Shown: positions 21,749 through 27,581 of the stretch, piece after piece | Layout of the letters: every line of letters starts with the position of its first letter | Numbering within the stretch: the first letter of the stretch is position 1 | Source: Desulfosporosinus sp. Sb-LF | GTDB lineage: Bacteria; Bacillota; Desulfitobacteriia; Desulfitobacteriales; Desulfitobacteriaceae | Direction: 5' to 3' | Length of the DNA stretch: 64,000 bases | NCBI RefSeq assembly: GCF_004766055.1 | Contig: NZ_SPQR01000001.1 | Coordinates: 1 to 64,000, forward strand | Program-made: the position numbers and the translations under genes | The notes under the pieces: model-generated | The model's database searches: none | Seen by the model: only the letters and a program-made list of their open reading frames with translations | What the model was told of the DNA's origin: nothing

Positions 21749-22698
21749 TGGAAAAAACCGGGCATCCAGCGACTTACGTTGAAGTGCAAAAATTACACCC
21801 ACTTTATTTTAATATTGTGAAGAAACGGTATTGGTGGTTTGCTATTTCGTTACTGATTATTATTCCGGGAATCATCTCCCTCTTCATGCAGGGCCTGAAT
21901 TTAGGGATTGATTTCAAAGGTGGAACAATGCTTGACATGACCTTCAAGAAGGCAGTGACGCAAACTGCTATCACGGATACGATGAAATCAGTGGGGCTTG
22001 AAGGACCTGTGCAATTGTCTAATGGAAACACAACCGCGTTGATTCGAACTGCGGCACTTGAAGAAACAAAACGAAATGAATTACTGACAGCCTTGCAAAC
22101 CAAGGTCGGAGAGTATGATAAAACGACTCTTAAAGAGGATAAAGTAGGTCCAGCGATGGGGCAAGAGCTAACCCGAAATGCATTTTATGCATTAATCATT
22201 GCCATGGGTTTGATGATTGCCTATATCACGATTCGTTTCCAGTTTGTCTTTGCAATCTCCGGGATTATCGCCCTATTGCACGATGTTTTAGTGGTCGTAG
22301 GTCTTTTCTCGCTGTTTAGATGGGAAATTGATTCGACGTTTGTGGCAGCAGTCTTGACCATCTTCGGCTACTCCATTAATGATACCGTCGTGATATTTGA
22401 CCGGATTCGAGAAAATGAAGCCAAGATGAAGCGTGGAGATAGCTTTGAAGACATGGTGGATAAATCCGTTTGGCAAACCATGCGTCGCTCGATCAATACC
22501 GTCGTTACGGTACTAATCGCCCTATTTTCGGTGTATATCTTAGGTGGGGAATCAACTAAGGTATTTTCGTTGGCCATGTTGATAGGAGTATTCAGTGGAG
22601 CCTATTCTTCAATTTTTAATGCCAGCCAAATCCTTGTGGAAATCAAGACTCATCTGAAGCCGAAGCACCGTAAAGGCGGCAAGGTTGTTCGCACTTAA
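21748..22698 (+). CDS. secF: Protein translocase subunit SecF
   Basis: This 316-residue partner of SecD has a first membrane helix (about 29-50), the GIDFKGGTMLD motif and a C-terminal five-helix domain with GYSINDTVVIFDRIREN. The ATG overlaps the secD stop, so translation is coupled. A terminator follows at 22723. Confidence 0.96.
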   Translation: MEKTGHPATYVEVQKLHPLYFNIVKKRYWWFAISLLIIIPGIISLFMQGLNLGIDFKGGTMLDMTFKKAVTQTAITDTMKSVGLEGPVQLSNGNTTALIRTAALEETKRNELLTALQTKVGEYDKTTLKEDKVGPAMGQELTRNAFYALIIAMGLMIAYITIRFQFVFAISGIIALLHDVLVVVGLFSLFRWEIDSTFVAAVLTIFGYSINDTVVIFDRIRENEAKMKRGDSFEDMVDKSVWQTMRRSINTVVTVLIALFSVYILGGESTKVFSLAMLIGVFSGAYSSIFNASQILVEIKTHLKPKHRKGGKVVRT

Positions 22699-22722
22699 TT
22701 TTTAAATAGACCTCATTAACTT

Positions 22723-22757
22723 AAAGAGATCTCGAGAATTATTCTTGAGGTCTCTTT
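22723..22757 (+). terminator. Terminator after secF
   Basis: AAAGAGATCTCGAGAAT (22723-22739) pairs with ATTCTTGAGGTCTCTTT (from 22741) with few mismatches and leads into T residues. It lies about 25 bases after the secF stop. Confidence 0.75.
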
Positions 22758-22904
22758 TGGCGTTTTCAGAATCGTATAAATGGCTTTGGCTCACTTAATT
22801 ATTGAAAGGAATGAATTATATGGTAAGATAGGGCTAAAAATAAGGTAATAGAGCATGAACAATTACCATAAATTGACAGACTTTCAAGCGTGAAGGAGTT
22901 TACG

Positions 22905-23789
22905 ATGCTGAAGAAAATAGTTTCTCTTCTTATTATCTGCTTGCTTATCATGGGAGCCAGCGGTTGTACTGGGACAAAATCTCCAGAAAAAGTCCCAGAG
23001 GATTCTTTACCATCAATGTCATCACACCTTATATCTGAAAATCAATTTGCTGCAACGAATTCTGCAGATGAGACAAATCGTGTTTCGGCGAACAACACGC
23101 CCGGAACTTCAAACGTGTCAAGAGCCCAAGCGGTTCCCGTTTTGTATTATCATTCGGTCATGCAAGAAACTGGAAACGAAGTAAGAATGCCTCCGGACCA
23201 GTTCGATGCTCAGATGGCTTACCTGCTGGCACAGGGGTATCAATGTATTACCTTAGATCAGTTATACCAGACCTCTGCTCAGGAAGATATTCTTCCAGCA
23301 AAACCTTTTGTAATCACCTTTGATGACGGTTACTTAGATAATTATACGATTGCTTATCCTATCTTGAAAAAATACGGGTTTACTGCAACAATTTTTATGG
23401 TTTCGAGTTATATAAATGGAGAGGGATTTATGTCCTGGTCTCAACTCAGAGAACTAGATTCCAATGGATGGAAAATTGAAGGCCATACAGTTAATCATCC
23501 ATATTTGTCAAAACTGGACGCCGTTACAATGTTAAACGAACTTAAAAGTTCTAAGGATTTCTTAGAAAAGGGTCTAGGTCATACGGTTAATTTTTTCGCC
23601 TACCCCTACGGAGACGTCAATGATCGTGTTGCCCTGGCGGTTAAAAACTCAGGGTATGTGATGGCTTTTACCACAGAAAGAGGATGGGCCGATCCAAGAG
23701 CAAATGCATGGCATCTACAACGTGTATATTGCTTTGCCTCTATGGGTCTGAATGAATTTTCACGACGCATTCAGAACTCAAACTACTAG
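22905..23789 (+). CDS. Polysaccharide deacetylase-family lipoprotein
   Basis: This lipoprotein of 294 residues has a signal sequence with lipobox GASGC (Cys about 22). A Ser/Thr/Asn-rich linker (to about residue 80) leads to a carbohydrate esterase 4 (NodB-like) domain. Catalytic features are visible: TFDDGYLDNY with the base and metal aspartate, HTVNHPYLS with the metal histidines, and FAYPYGD. Such enzymes remove N-acetyl groups from peptidoglycan or other surface glycans. AAGGAG lies just before the chosen ATG; an in-frame GTG at 22890 overlaps it. It is followed by its own terminator. Confidence 0.9.
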   Translation: MLKKIVSLLIICLLIMGASGCTGTKSPEKVPEDSLPSMSSHLISENQFAATNSADETNRVSANNTPGTSNVSRAQAVPVLYYHSVMQETGNEVRMPPDQFDAQMAYLLAQGYQCITLDQLYQTSAQEDILPAKPFVITFDDGYLDNYTIAYPILKKYGFTATIFMVSSYINGEGFMSWSQLRELDSNGWKIEGHTVNHPYLSKLDAVTMLNELKSSKDFLEKGLGHTVNFFAYPYGDVNDRVALAVKNSGYVMAFTTERGWADPRANAWHLQRVYCFASMGLNEFSRRIQNSNY

Positions 23790-23803
23790 AATTCACCTGA
23801 TTG

Positions 23804-23829
23804 CTCTCTGAATTAATTCGGAGAGTTTT
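23804..23829 (+). terminator. Terminator after the deacetylase gene
   Basis: CTCTC (23804-23808) pairs with GAGAG (23821-23825), extended by GAA/TTC, and T residues follow directly. Confidence 0.65.
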
Positions 23830-24015
23830 CTATTGTCCAATATGGTTCACTCATTTTAATCCTCCGCTAGTTATAGCGAGGAGATCTAGTTCAGGAAAAG
23901 TGCTATTTCTAGCGGAAAATAGTTTATGGTAAAATTTAACATTTATAGAGATTTAACATATCTTAAAGTGAGCCCAGAAAAATACAGAGTTTTGATAAAT
24001 AGGAGGTTGTTTGAT

Positions 24016-24135
24016 ATGGCATATGGCGTAGGTGTGGACGGTGTTGAAGGCGTTGGATGTAAAAACTTTTTACCTGGAATTGCAGTTGTGGTTGTGATTA
24101 TCCTACTGTTAATCGCAATGGGAATAGTGTTCTAA
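24016..24135 (+). CDS. Tiny glycine-rich single-span membrane protein, type A, copy 1 (YjcZ-like)
   Basis: This 39-residue protein opens MAYGVGVDGVEGVGCK, continues NFLPG and ends in a hydrophobic helix (VVVVIILLLIAMGIVF). The layout resembles the YjcZ family of short sporulation-associated proteins, but the match is by composition and layout, not a recognised signature. The start is fixed by AGGAGG 9 bases upstream. It differs from copy 2 (24789) mainly by lacking three residues (a GC and a Q) around the cysteine region. No function can be assigned from sequence. Confidence 0.78.
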   Translation: MAYGVGVDGVEGVGCKNFLPGIAVVVVIILLLIAMGIVF

Positions 24136-24191
24136 ACCAAATAAGAGTAACAATTTTGATAAACTAAAGGTTTATGAAGGGAGGGCATTTC

Positions 24192-24305
24192 ATGTACGGA
24201 TACGGAGCAGGGTGTGGTATGCCAGTAGGTGTAGGTCGTGGCGTGGGAGTTGGCATTATTGTTATCGCAATTTTAATCTTAATTGCCTTGGGAGTTATAT
24301 TTTAA
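24192..24305 (+). CDS. Tiny glycine-rich single-span membrane protein, type B, copy 1
   Basis: This 37-residue protein opens MYGYGAGCGMPVGVGRGVGV and ends in a hydrophobic helix with the terminus ILIALGVIF. It has one cysteine and one arginine. GAAGGGAGGG precedes the ATG. The helix sequence is of the second type, shared with type D and distinct from A and C. It is 56 bases after gene A and is part of the duplicated block. Confidence 0.78.
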   Translation: MYGYGAGCGMPVGVGRGVGVGIIVIAILILIALGVIF

Positions 24306-24350
24306 CCTCGAAACAGCGAAAAACTAAAAAGATTAAAGGGGGTTAAAACA

Positions 24351-24443
24351 ATGTTTGGAGCAGGCGGAACCGGAGTTGGTGCAGGGATTGCTGTGGTTGT
24401 CGTGATTATTCTTTTGCTCATCGCAATGGGAATCGTATTCTAA
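24351..24443 (+). CDS. Tiny glycine-rich single-span membrane protein, type C, copy 1
   Basis: This 30-residue protein opens MFGAGGTGVGAGIA. It is followed by the same helix as type A (VVVVIILLLIAMGIVF). It is essentially a type A protein without its N-terminal DGVEGVG segment. AAAGGGGG precedes the ATG. In copy 2 (25122) the third to seventh residues change to GACRT, which introduces a cysteine. Confidence 0.76.
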   Translation: MFGAGGTGVGAGIAVVVVIILLLIAMGIVF

Positions 24444-24480
24444 CTTGGAAACAGGTTATACAGTAATTGGAGGTGATCTT

Positions 24481-24582
24481 ATGTACGGGTACGGTGCAGG
24501 CATGGGTGTCGGTGGATGTGCAGGAATCGGAATTATTGCTGTTGCAGTTTTGATTCTAATCGCCTTGGGAGTAATATTCTAA
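24481..24582 (+). CDS. Tiny glycine-rich single-span membrane protein, type D, copy 1
   Basis: This 33-residue protein opens MYGYGAGMGVGGCAGIG and ends LILIALGVIF, the same helix end as type B. GGAGGTGA precedes the ATG. It is the last gene of copy 1, 22 bases before the terminator stem. Confidence 0.77.
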   Translation: MYGYGAGMGVGGCAGIGIIAVAVLILIALGVIF

Positions 24583-24604
24583 AATAGTTGGCAAAGTAAC
24601 TTCT

Positions 24605-24629
24605 GAGGATCCCATGTAATGGGATCCTC
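24605..24629 (+). terminator. Terminator closing mini-protein block copy 1
   Basis: GAGGATCCCAT (24605-24615) pairs perfectly with ATGGGATCCTC (24619-24629) around GTA, followed by TTT. Confidence 0.8.
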
Positions 24630-24788
24630 TTTACGTACTTGGTGCTAAATAGACAAACAGTACTATTGCAAAAAAGAACTCAGATTAGCTCGAAAATATA
24701 ATGGAAAATATTAACATATATAAATCTCCTGAATATCTTAAAGTAAGCCCAAAGAAATACAGAACATGGAAACAGGAGGTTGTTTGAT

Positions 24789-24917
24789 ATGGCATATGGC
24801 GTAGGTGTGGACGGTGTCGAAGGCGTTGGATGCGGATGCAAGCAAAATTTCTTACCAGGAATTGCAGTCGTAGTTGTAATAATTCTTCTGTTAATCGCAA
24901 TGGGAATAGTATTCTAA
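24789..24917 (+). CDS. Tiny glycine-rich single-span membrane protein, type A, copy 2
   Basis: This 42-residue protein opens like copy 1 (MAYGVGVDGVEGVG), followed by CGCKQNFLPG and the shared helix. The CGC pair gives it two cysteines. From the ribosome site to codon 13, its DNA is nearly identical to copy 1, with a silent third-base change, so the duplication is fairly recent or under strong selection. Confidence 0.78.
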   Translation: MAYGVGVDGVEGVGCGCKQNFLPGIAVVVVIILLLIAMGIVF

Positions 24918-24959
24918 ACATTTACGATTCTTATATTTGAGAAATAAGGAGGGTATACC

Positions 24960-25073
24960 ATGTACGGTTATGGAGTAGGTTGTGGTGCACCAGTAGGTAT
25001 AGGCCGTGGCGTAGGAGTTGGCATCATTGCCATCGCAATTCTGATTTTAATTGCTCTTGGAGTTATCTTCTAA
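24960..25073 (+). CDS. Tiny glycine-rich single-span membrane protein, type B, copy 2
   Basis: This 37-residue protein opens MYGYGVGCGAPVGIGRGVGV and ends ILIALGVIF. It has the same length as copy 1 and only conservative changes (A/V, M/A, V/I). AGGAGGG precedes the ATG. Confidence 0.78.
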   Translation: MYGYGVGCGAPVGIGRGVGVGIIAIAILILIALGVIF

Positions 25074-25121
25074 ACAAAATAAGTCAGAAAATAGACTAAA
25101 AGATTAAAGGGGGTCAAAATA

Positions 25122-25214
25122 ATGTTTGGAGCATGTAGAACTGGTGTTGGTGCAGGTATCGCAGTGGTTGTTGTGATTATTCTTTTGCTTATCGCAATGG
25201 GAATCGTATTCTAA
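25122..25214 (+). CDS. Tiny glycine-rich single-span membrane protein, type C, copy 2
   Basis: This 30-residue protein opens MFGACRTGVGAGIA and has the type A/C helix. Its single cysteine and arginine are absent from copy 1. AAAGGGGG precedes the ATG, as in copy 1. Confidence 0.76.
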   Translation: MFGACRTGVGAGIAVVVVIILLLIAMGIVF

Positions 25215-25251
25215 CTTGAAACCATGATTATGGAATTACGGGGGTGATTTT

Positions 25252-25353
25252 ATGTACGGTTATGGTGTAGGCATGGGCGTTGGTGGATGTGCAGGTGTAG
25301 GGATTATTGCTATTGCAGTATTGATTCTGATTGCCTTAGGGGTAATCTTCTAA
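25252..25353 (+). CDS. Tiny glycine-rich single-span membrane protein, type D, copy 2
   Basis: This 33-residue protein opens MYGYGVGMGVGGCAGVG and ends LILIALGVIF. Compared with copy 1 it has only conservative substitutions. GGGGGTGA precedes the ATG. A terminator follows 25 bases later. Confidence 0.77.
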   Translation: MYGYGVGMGVGGCAGVGIIAIAVLILIALGVIF

Positions 25354-25378
25354 AAGAAAACCAAAATTCATCTTGTTG

Positions 25379-25401
25379 AGGATCCCTAAATTAGGGATCC
25401 T
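25379..25401 (+). terminator. Terminator closing mini-protein block copy 2
   Basis: AGGATCCCT (25379-25387) pairs with AGGGATCCT (25393-25401), followed by TTT. It is homologous to the terminator at 24605. Confidence 0.78.
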
Positions 25402-25533
25402 TTTAACGTTTTGAGTTTATTAGTGTCATTTTGCTTTGCAGGATACAGTGTGATGTAGTTGCTTAAAAATATCCGATTTCATTTGTGTGGTATCGATTAC
25501 CAAGTAAAAGATTTAAGGCCGTGCGCTTAAACG

Positions 25534-25572
25534 AAAAAGGGTGCTGGCATTATGAATCCAGCGCCCCTTTTT
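25534..25572. terminator. Hairpin terminator between the mini-protein block and the Trp-rich gene
   Basis: AAAAAGGGTGCTGG (25534-25547) pairs with CCAGCGCCCCTTTTT (25558-25572) with one mismatch around a ten-base loop. It has A residues on one side and T residues on the other, so it may work in both directions. The remaining bases between 25402 and 25664 show nothing I can name. Confidence 0.65.
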
Positions 25573-25664
25573 GGCAGTGCTATTGAAATAAAAGCCAATA
25601 TCTTAGAATGGTGATCATAAGAAAAATCACGTTTATTGAGGATCAGATTTAAAGCCGTAAAGGC

Positions 25665-25763
25665 CTACCACCACCAGCGACGAAAGCCCCACCATGGGCC
25701 AAATCCAAAACCGCCGAAGCCCCCCCACCAAGGAAGACCCCAACCAAAACGACCCCACCACAT
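25665..25763 (-). CDS. 32-residue Trp/Gly/Phe-rich protein of unknown function
   Basis: On the minus strand an ATG at 25763 is preceded by a perfect AAGGAGGT with 7 bases between. It opens a frame reading MWWGRFGWGL and PWWGGFGGFGFG, ending RRWWW. Of 32 residues, 10 are Trp, 10 Gly and 5 Phe, with three Arg and no acidic residue. I recognise no family. The composition suggests a membrane-interface or coat-like peptide, which is inference. It lies convergent to the duplicated mini-protein block and may belong to the same developmental set. Confidence 0.7.
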   Translation of the reverse strand: MWWGRFGWGLPWWGGFGGFGFGPWWGFRRWWW

Positions 25764-25985
25764 AGACAAAACCTCCTTAAATTATCATCTTTGCTAACAC
25801 ATAGGTCTGTAGCTGTGTGATTTCTGCTACCTAATATAGAATATGAACGCTAAAGGATAGATGTTCTATAATTAGAAAATAATGGGTTTTTTATTTATGC
25901 GCGAAGAAAGCAATCTTCAAAAAGGTTAGATTATAGATTATTGGGCTATAATAGCAGAAAAGTATGGGTAGGGGAGAGAGGTTGC

Positions 25986-26432
25986 TTGGGATTCATTCAA
26001 TTAGTATTACTGGAGGGACTGCTCCTTCTTTCAGCAGGCATGATTTTCTTCGGCGGGATTCGGGGAACAGTTGCAGCAACTGTTGCTTTGAGCGGAATTA
26101 ACTTATTAGTTCATGATCCGGTTCAGTTTTGGCGCTGGGAAATCCCCCTTCTGCTTGGAGGCGTGGTAGGAATGTCACTATTACTTATAGTCGGTAGAAT
26201 TGCCAATAGGGGTAAAGTGGTGAGTGGTTTGGTCGGAGGGGTGATCAGTTTAGTTCTTTTTGGTGCCTTTTTCACACCCATCATAGCCATTATCTTATGG
26301 GGTTTGGTATTCGGAACAGGTATTATCCCTAGATACAAACGAAGTGAGGTTTTGTGGAGCTTTGCCCCGACAATTTCACGGTTGATCTTGGGCCTTGGAT
26401 GGATTATTTACGGAAATTTCTTAACTTTATAG
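25986..26432 (+). CDS. Integral membrane protein of unknown function
   Basis: This protein of about 148 residues is mostly hydrophobic, with four or five likely membrane helices (from about 6-25, 30-50, 55-75, 85-110 and 130-147). It has no recognised motif. The chosen TTG at 25986 follows a GGGGAGAGG ribosome site. An earlier in-frame TTG at 25941 lies upstream of a TATAAT (25945-25950) that looks like the gene's own -10, so it is less likely. The gene stands alone before the riboswitch-controlled exporter. Confidence 0.6.
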   Translation: MGFIQLVLLEGLLLLSAGMIFFGGIRGTVAATVALSGINLLVHDPVQFWRWEIPLLLGGVVGMSLLLIVGRIANRGKVVSGLVGGVISLVLFGAFFTPIIAIILWGLVFGTGIIPRYKRSEVLWSFAPTISRLILGLGWIIYGNFLTL

Positions 26433-26493
26433 CCAAAGCAAAATAAATCTTGCTTTCAGGTGCAGTATTTGGTATCTTATACATAAACTATCA

Positions 26494-26577
26494 TTGTCAG
26501 GCAGTATGGCTGGGCTTCAGAACATGGGGCAGCGGAGGAATCCGCGGGACTTCCTTTTATTAGAGGAGTCCTATTTT
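26494..26577 (+). ncRNA. NiCo-type (czcD) riboswitch with terminator platform
   Basis: The leader contains CAGGCAG (26498-26504), then GGGGCAGCGG (26526-26535) followed by a short GCGGA/TCCGC stem and GGGAC. These are features I associate with the Ni/Co-sensing czcD riboswitch class. GGACTTCC (26547-26554) can pair with GGAGTCC (26565-26571), which is followed by TATTTTT, giving an intrinsic terminator. It lies 48 bases before a cation-efflux gene, the usual target. High metal would be expected to turn the exporter on. Confidence 0.75.
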
Positions 26578-26624
26578 TGTGTACTTTAGCAACTAGTTTT
26601 ATGGAAGGTGAGGAGAGTTGAATC

Positions 26625-27581
26625 GTGGATGAGAAGACGCAGGTGGCCTCATTATCCGTCATTTCAAATACGTTTTTGACCTTAGCGAAAGTCGTAATCG
26701 GGTTAGCCAATGGTTCGGTGAGTATACTGTCCGAGGGAATCCATTCCGGTATTGACTTGGTGGCATCCTTTATTGCACTTTTTGCGGTGAGAGAGTCAGG
26801 AAAACCAGCAGATACGCGCCATGCTTACGGACATGGAAAAATAGAAAATGTTTCAGGCACAATTGAGGCTGTTTTGATATTTGTCGCCGCTATTATGATT
26901 ATCTTTGAAGCAATTCAGAAGGTTTATAATATTATTGAGGGAGAGGGAGGCCATGTCGGAGACCTAGGATTAGGCATGGTCATCATGGGAGTATCTGCAA
27001 TCATGAACTTGATTGTTTCGACACGACTTATGAAGGTCGCGAAACTTACCGATTCTGTAGCACTCGAAGCCGATGCGTTACATTTAAGGACAGACGTATA
27101 TACCTCATTGGGTGTTTTTAGCGGCCTTCTCTTGATTAAGCTGACGGGTTGGGCTATCTTAGATCCGATTATCGCGCTTGGTGTAGCCTTAATGATCCTC
27201 AAGGCCTCTTTTGACTTGACAAAGGAAGCTTTCTCGCCACTCGTTGATGTTAGCTTACCTGATGAGGAGCGTGAAATTATTGCCGAAGTCCTTCTAGTCC
27301 ATGCGGATGAATTTGTCGAATTCCACAAACTTCGGACTCGTAAGGCTGGAGCGGAAAGGCATGTTGATTTACATCTCGTCGTTGCCAAGTACACTTCAGT
27401 TGTTGACGTTCATGAACTGTGCGACATGATTGAGCAGGAGATTAATGAGAAATTGCATGGAACCCATATTCTAATTCACGCCGAACCATGTAGTAGTAGG
27501 GATACGGCATGTCCAGCTGAGGAAGGCCTAGCTTCCTCGTGTCAGGGTTGTGAGATAAGGAATCCAAAACAAGAACCGTAA
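26625..27581 (+). CDS. Cation diffusion facilitator metal exporter
   Basis: This 318-residue membrane transporter exports divalent metals in exchange for protons. It has the family signature: SEGIHSGIDLVAS in the second helix, RHAYGHGKIEN after it, and EADALHLRTDVYTS in the fifth helix. A cytoplasmic C-terminal domain follows. An unusual tail of about 30 residues contains four cysteines (CSSRDTAC, CQGC) and could bind metal. The start is GTG after GGAGAG. The riboswitch upstream suggests Ni/Co as relevant metals rather than only zinc. Confidence 0.92.
   Translation: MDEKTQVASLSVISNTFLTLAKVVIGLANGSVSILSEGIHSGIDLVASFIALFAVRESGKPADTRHAYGHGKIENVSGTIEAVLIFVAAIMIIFEAIQKVYNIIEGEGGHVGDLGLGMVIMGVSAIMNLIVSTRLMKVAKLTDSVALEADALHLRTDVYTSLGVFSGLLLIKLTGWAILDPIIALGVALMILKASFDLTKEAFSPLVDVSLPDEEREIIAEVLLVHADEFVEFHKLRTRKAGAERHVDLHLVVAKYTSVVDVHELCDMIEQEINEKLHGTHILIHAEPCSSRDTACPAEEGLASSCQGCEIRNPKQEP

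Follow-up and report, generated by a model that had tools for sequence, protein, structure and literature searches.

A stretch of 64,000 nucleotides (the window) of the Desulfosporosinus sp. Sb-LF genome harbors an array of eight genes for tiny peptides, which is probably a locus of order-specific, paired membrane peptides that are driven by sigmaK, made late in sporulation and anchored by a helix. It represents a local amplification within a family of gene pairs that recurs order-wide. The genome-wide extent of this family, to which the array contributes 8/39 matches, is not visible from the window alone. The array genes are real, and so is their family, which none of the models tested covers.

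The array is flanked on one side by a polysaccharide deacetylase gene (PF01522) and on the other by the frame of a membrane protein that no Pfam model matches; its Pfam-named neighbours are two, the polysaccharide deacetylase and a cation-efflux protein. An earlier note on this DNA had described eight short frames, each with its own ribosome site, in two A-B-C-D blocks that both end in a terminator and repeat with a period near 771 nucleotides. This description is borne out (Table 1): all eight open frames (30-42 aa) lie on the plus strand, GGAGG or GGGGG stands 7-9 nt 5' of the ATG in 8/8 genes, corresponding genes of the two blocks (A1/A2, B1/B2, C1/C2, D1/D2) start 768-775 nucleotides apart, and a hairpin closes each block. 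Together with their flanks, the hairpins fold at -23.8 (block 1) and -24.0 kcal/mol (block 2); an automated terminator scan listed neither the D1 nor the D2 hairpin. The sharing of one helix by A and C and of another by B and D, also proposed in the note, is evident from the C-termini, which read ...LIAMGIVF in A and C and ...LIALGVIF in B and D. The start of the block, placed by the note at 23926, has to be corrected. A 69-codon frame from the in-frame ATG at this position was considered as the true A1 and rejected: the region ahead of A1 contains the promoter with its conserved AC/CATATCTTA element, and copy 2 shows an interruption of the frame.

Table 1. Features of the array and of the adjacent Trp-rich peptide, in window coordinates (stop codons included for the array genes).
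Feature	Position	Strand	Details
SigmaK-type promoter, block 1	23939..23965	+	AC - 16 nt - CATATCTTA; found in 19/19 genus loci
A1, alpha-type peptide, 39 aa	24016..24135	+	helix GIAVVVVIILLLIAMGIVF
B1, beta-type peptide, 37 aa	24192..24305	+	helix GVGIIVIAILILIALGVIF
C1, alpha-type peptide, 30 aa	24351..24443	+	
D1, beta-type peptide, 33 aa	24481..24582	+	predicted helix, residues 11-29
Hairpin ending block 1	24605..24629	+	11 Watson-Crick pairs, 3-nt loop, then TTT
Promoter-like copy, block 2	24714..24740	+	AC - 16 nt - AATATCTTA; first -10 base differs from that of CATANNNTA
A2, alpha-type peptide, 42 aa	24789..24917	+	
B2, beta-type peptide, 37 aa	24960..25073	+	
C2, alpha-type peptide, 30 aa	25122..25214	+	
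D2, beta-type peptide, 33 aa	25252..25353	+	
Hairpin ending block 2	25378..25402	+	10 Watson-Crick pairs, outer G-U, 3-nt loop, then TT
Trp/Gly-rich peptide, 32 aa	25665..25763	-	MWWGR...GFRRWWW; beside the array
SigmaK-type pattern 5' of the Trp-rich peptide	25837..25864	-	AC - 17 nt - CATATTCTA

A profile of the eight proteins yields 39 matches in the genome, all of them open frames (38 at E <= 0.001), which comprise the 8 of the array, 28 arranged as 14 alpha-beta pairs, and 3 single genes. The alpha type follows the form MAFG...GAACGCG..FGAGIAAVVVIILLLIAMGIVF (20 aligned) and the beta type the form MYGMGYGG..ACCPPPV..VGVGIIAIAILILIALGVIF (18 aligned). Neighbours were counted by searching with profiles through every frame of at least 20 residues in the window and in 56 loci fetched from this genome and its relatives, among them one control stretch (L078). 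The 181 profile hits give 83 alpha-beta, 36 beta-alpha, 3 alpha-alpha and 2 beta-beta neighbours, counts that retain one beta-like protein (L098) typed as alpha by the profile and one beta hit with 48 residues past the match. Alpha leads 54 of the 57 gene runs. Two betas with no alpha between them occur in L069 and L070, and no partner is seen for L035 nor for the short alpha of L029. The recurring unit is the pair, not the four-gene block, and the alternation of helix types noticed earlier is supported.

The helices of both types are near-invariant. At least 0.9 conservation is reached by 17/19 helix columns in alpha (91 distinct proteins) and by 16/19 in beta (84 distinct), and the profile match extends to the last residue in 92/93 alpha and 81/88 beta hits. 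The part preceding the helix, 7-48 residues long in 85 alpha and 80 beta proteins collected by sequence pattern, consists of about 30% Gly; beta tails also contain 11% Tyr, 11% Pro and 8% Cys. At least one Cys is present in 71/80 beta tails and in 58/85 alpha tails. For D1, AlphaFold2 predicts one helix (mean pLDDT 76). Alignment of the 19-column helix profiles of alpha and beta scores 30.0, a value reached by 0/200 column shuffles, and the two types are clearly related.

The eight array genes are under purifying selection. Copy 1 and copy 2 differ by 48.7 synonymous changes over 109.8 sites and by 11.3 nonsynonymous changes over 307.2 sites (pN 0.037, pS 0.443; JC-corrected dN/dS 0.056), and the helices alone show 30 synonymous and 4 nonsynonymous changes between the copies. 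Because synonymous sites differ at 44% and the proteins have hardly changed, the blocks are not a fresh duplication. Neutral substitution between the copies, named in the note as an argument against functional genes, is not what is observed; a dN/dS of about 0.06 and the order-wide occurrence of the proteins speak for function instead of chance. The view that the alpha/beta split predates the duplication of the block is supported as well.

At E <= 0.001, the family is present in 67/73 genomes of the whole order, and it occurs in 56 of a set of 60 genomes (source genome included). Absence from all relatives, considered in the note, for the block, to speak against functional genes, is not found for the family. 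The family is present in 12 genomes of a phylum sample of 398, all of them members of the order, and in 0/386 elsewhere. The six order genomes without the family are the five of genus g15 and G454. A profile scan of contigs with the beta alignment returned only 4 loci, and the carriers named by scanning are Desulfosporosinus fructosivorans and Desulfitobacteriaceae and Peptococcaceae MAGs. Within the genus, 19 loci were obtained from 19/28 other genomes, picked because the array appeared among their hits; they hold 3 to 7 genes in a single array (six genes in 10 loci, four in 6), at a location common to all 19. Upstream of the array, a secF-labelled gene is found in 19/19 and the polysaccharide deacetylase in 18/19 of these loci (not found in L068), and downstream the membrane gene, the cation-efflux gene and a recJ-labelled gene are found in 18/19, the sequence of L066 being short there; the labels secF and recJ are our own. 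The gene order is A-b-a-D or A-b-a-b-a-D in 11/19 loci, or in 12/19 when a beta missed by the pattern in L062 is added. The array of the window reads AbaDAbaD. L068 (G002) reads AbaAbaD, and no other locus among the 19 has two A-type genes.

The distribution of the family was set beside that of two sporulation genes in the 73 order genomes, some of which are incomplete assemblies, with SpoIVA defined by TIGR02836 (E <= 1e-10) and SpoIIP by PF07454. All six genomes lacking the family (6/6) are without spoIVA and without SpoIIP. A spoIVA match is present in 66/73 genomes (55/60 and 11/14, G054 being in both sets) and in 66/67 family carriers, with G054 as the exception; the match of G453 is only partial and below the cut-off. 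SpoIIP is found in 62/73 genomes and is absent from five family carriers (G010, G017, G031, G447 and G453). A Fisher test of the family against spoIVA gives about 4e-8 on counts alone, with g15 constituting one lineage. G454 was scored as family-negative before its sporulation genes were examined, and in its congener G033 the family occurs together with spoIVA and SpoIIP. The co-absence amounts to two apparent joint losses, with one exception for spoIVA. In this exception, G054, 6 family matches and SpoIIP are present, and the lack of a spoIVA match reflects an assembly gap or a real loss. Two genomes of genus g4 (G031 and G447), at least 97% complete, have spoIVA and the family and no SpoIIP match. 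Since 335/398 genomes of the phylum sample have spoIVA and only 12 the family, the latter is not needed for sporulation generally.

The upstream regions of the family are rich in the pattern AC-N14-18-CATANNNTA, which we take to be the sigmaK consensus. It occurs in 25/51 upstreams compared with 1.07 expected and a maximum of 4 in 200 dinucleotide shuffles, where the 51 upstreams are not independent, given an ungapped redundancy filter and the shared ancestry of the 19 genus loci. SigE-, SigG/F- and SigA-type patterns stay at background (2, 1 and 14 observed vs 1.8, 1.4 and 12.9 expected). Real control upstreams (ORFs of about 200 codons, first ATG) contain the full sigmaK pattern in 0/201 cases and CATANNNT alone in 21/201; among the family upstreams, CATANNNT alone is found in 51/56. 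The full pattern precedes the array in 19/19 genus loci, which differ in their spacers and keep both promoter elements despite common ancestry, and it is found in 4/16 upstreams of the source genome (window included), 2/8 at the level of the taxonomic family, 4/11 in the rest of the order and 0/2 in the named MAGs. Besides the window and the 19 genus loci, 36 upstreams remain, with the full pattern in 9/36 and CATANNNT in 31/36. Both strands of the 64-kb window together contain six occurrences of the full pattern, two of these belonging to the array and to the adjacent Trp-rich peptide, and the source genome has a sigmaK gene that scores above its family's cut-off. In B. subtilis, the -35 and -10 blocks of sigmaK promoters are reported to be separated by 14-16 nt (PMC517825). 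The link to spores that had been suggested for the array gains support from this promoter type and from the co-absence with sporulation genes.

Further elements accompany these promoters. The sequence GTGAGCCC at 23968-23975, 3' of the -10 and near the expected transcript start, is kept in 16/19 genus arrays. Several alpha genes of the source genome (L022, L026-L028, L030, L031 and L033) share a second upstream element, ACCATATTGTTMCA or a near variant, 28 nt 5' of the nearer CATA element; this could be a site for a regulator or an additional promoter.

From these observations, the timing of expression, the location, the hetero-packing and the role in the coat can be inferred as follows. The sigmaK-type promoters would switch on the alpha-beta pairs in the mother cell, and the C-terminal helix of each peptide would insert in a membrane, probably the outer forespore membrane. 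The flexible N-terminal tail, rich in Gly, Cys, Pro and Tyr, would project towards the site of coat or outer-layer assembly. With two matched helix types whose genes alternate, packing in the membrane may be mixed, and diversified tails in many copies may provide surface variety. The molecular role would then be the anchoring or building of an outer spore layer.

The closest described counterpart is the YjcZ family (PF09680), to which the earlier note had seen a likeness by composition only. This holds for the lack of profile membership and falls short in that the layout and the multi-copy tandem pairs are alike, too, and that the register of the alpha helix and the promoter type may be. Both groups consist of peptides of about 26-70 aa with a variable N-terminus rich in Gly, Tyr and Cys and one near-invariant hydrophobic helix near the C-terminus, and in the array family a Gly-rich variable N-terminus followed by one such helix is indeed found. 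Both occur in many copies (up to 14 YjcZ matches per genome) and in tandem pairs, and the sigmaK-type pattern before the array family has its parallel in yjcZ, which PMC517825 places in the B. subtilis sigmaK regulon from earlier gene-specific evidence. Confinement to spore-formers, a further trait of YjcZ, is borne out for the array family, with a spoIVA match in 66/67 carriers of the order and in none of the six non-carriers. The array family, however, has another helix sequence, two alternating helix types, Cys-Pro-rich beta tails and a chain that nearly always ends at the helix, and it is found in another order. Helix profiles of 19 columns, from helices collected by pattern, were compared with the YjcZ helix FALIVVLFILLIIVGA: alpha aligns end to end with a score of 20.2 against 13.7 +/- 2.6 for column-shuffled profiles (reached by 2/200), whereas beta scores 14.5, which is reached by 40/200 shuffles and equals chance. 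This is suggestive, as far as helix sequences go, of an origin common to YjcZ and alpha only. That the peptides are distant true members of YjcZ, in the sense of one ancestral spore peptide family from which the branch of this order has diverged too far, is conceivable in view of the shared layout, copy number and pairing, of the sigmaK control of yjcZ and of the alpha alignment, but on balance rather unlikely. PF09680 has no match at E <= 10 in the source genome; in the phylum sample, where it matches 7/398 genomes, it finds none of the 12 that belong to this order at E <= 0.001. A search of plasmids with a YjcZ consensus, by a tool that filters low-complexity queries, gave no hit. The window's eight proteins and the family members scanned yield nothing over the Pfam cut-offs, and the window's eight together with 18 beta and 20 alpha proteins yield nothing over those of NCBIfam, including TIGR01732, which we take to describe YjcZ family sporulation proteins. 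By YjcZ's own profile test the family is thus no member, though it probably works in a similar way. A Gly-rich stretch followed by a hydrophobic helix is also the layout of DUF3309 (PF11752), to whose C-terminal part D1 matches with 19.2 bits (E 0.0013); D2 reaches 15.9 bits. Both scores are below the curated cut-off of 22.3, and 2/18 beta members match at E <= 1. SscA and SpoVM of Bacillus are very small spore-envelope proteins that act at the forespore surface; by description, the array family resembles them in its very small size. The family is named nowhere in the accessible portions of the open-access literature searched, including PMC517825, PMC8313275, PMC11796252, PMC3533761 and PMC3306737.

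Two further readings depart from a structural role in the spore. Tiny hydrophobic peptides with sigmaK-type promoters could act as holin-like or pore-forming peptides that lyse the mother cell or disrupt a membrane at some other late step, but 39 matches per genome, variable tails and two conserved helix types better suit a structural role, and the two Pfam-named neighbours, deacetylase and cation-efflux, are not lysis genes; such a function is very improbable. Vegetative membrane peptides, be they subunits or regulators of complexes or toxin-like, with only an indirect link to sporulation, would be compatible with G054, where the family is retained and no spoIVA match is seen. This is improbable as well, for it is opposed by the sigmaK promoter type and by the co-absence with two sporulation genes in 6/6 negatives. 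Moreover, no Rfam family reaches the gathering threshold in 22500-27000, and hence no known antisense RNA is present there. Helix-anchored peptide pairs of late sporulation are the preferred reading.

A possible third component, which is a lead and not a result, is the Trp-rich peptide beside the array. This peptide (MWWGRFGWGLPWWGGFGGFGFGPWWGFRRWWW) is preceded by a ribosome site and has no Pfam match at E <= 0.1. Similar frames stand beside the array in 13/19 genus loci, and a profile built from 13/14 sequences matches, at E <= 0.01, 21/73 order genomes, 20 of them within the genus (n=29) and only one outside (G033, weak at 0.007). The sigmaK-type pattern is present in 6/14 of the upstreams and absent from 8/14. 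In a deep-branching relative (L098, G038:C7, 2633-3631), two tandem triads of alpha, beta and a Gly/Trp/Arg-rich peptide occur, and these Gly/Trp/Arg-rich peptides differ in sequence from the Trp-rich peptide.

Little is known of spore envelopes beyond Bacillus and Clostridioides, and none of the tested Pfam and NCBIfam models names these peptides. The family offers sporulation marker genes for Desulfosporosinus and relatives and a testable case of parallel versus common origin with YjcZ. Its helices are kept almost letter for letter order-wide with diverging tails, which raises the question of what the helix pair holds together. A bolder and doubtful extension is a membrane layer specific to the spores of this lineage, composed of paired alpha and beta helices, dozens of interchangeable Cys/Pro/Tyr-rich tails and a Trp/Arg-rich third component. 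If true, this layer would anchor the coat in a combinatorial, cross-linkable manner for which Bacillus offers no described counterpart.
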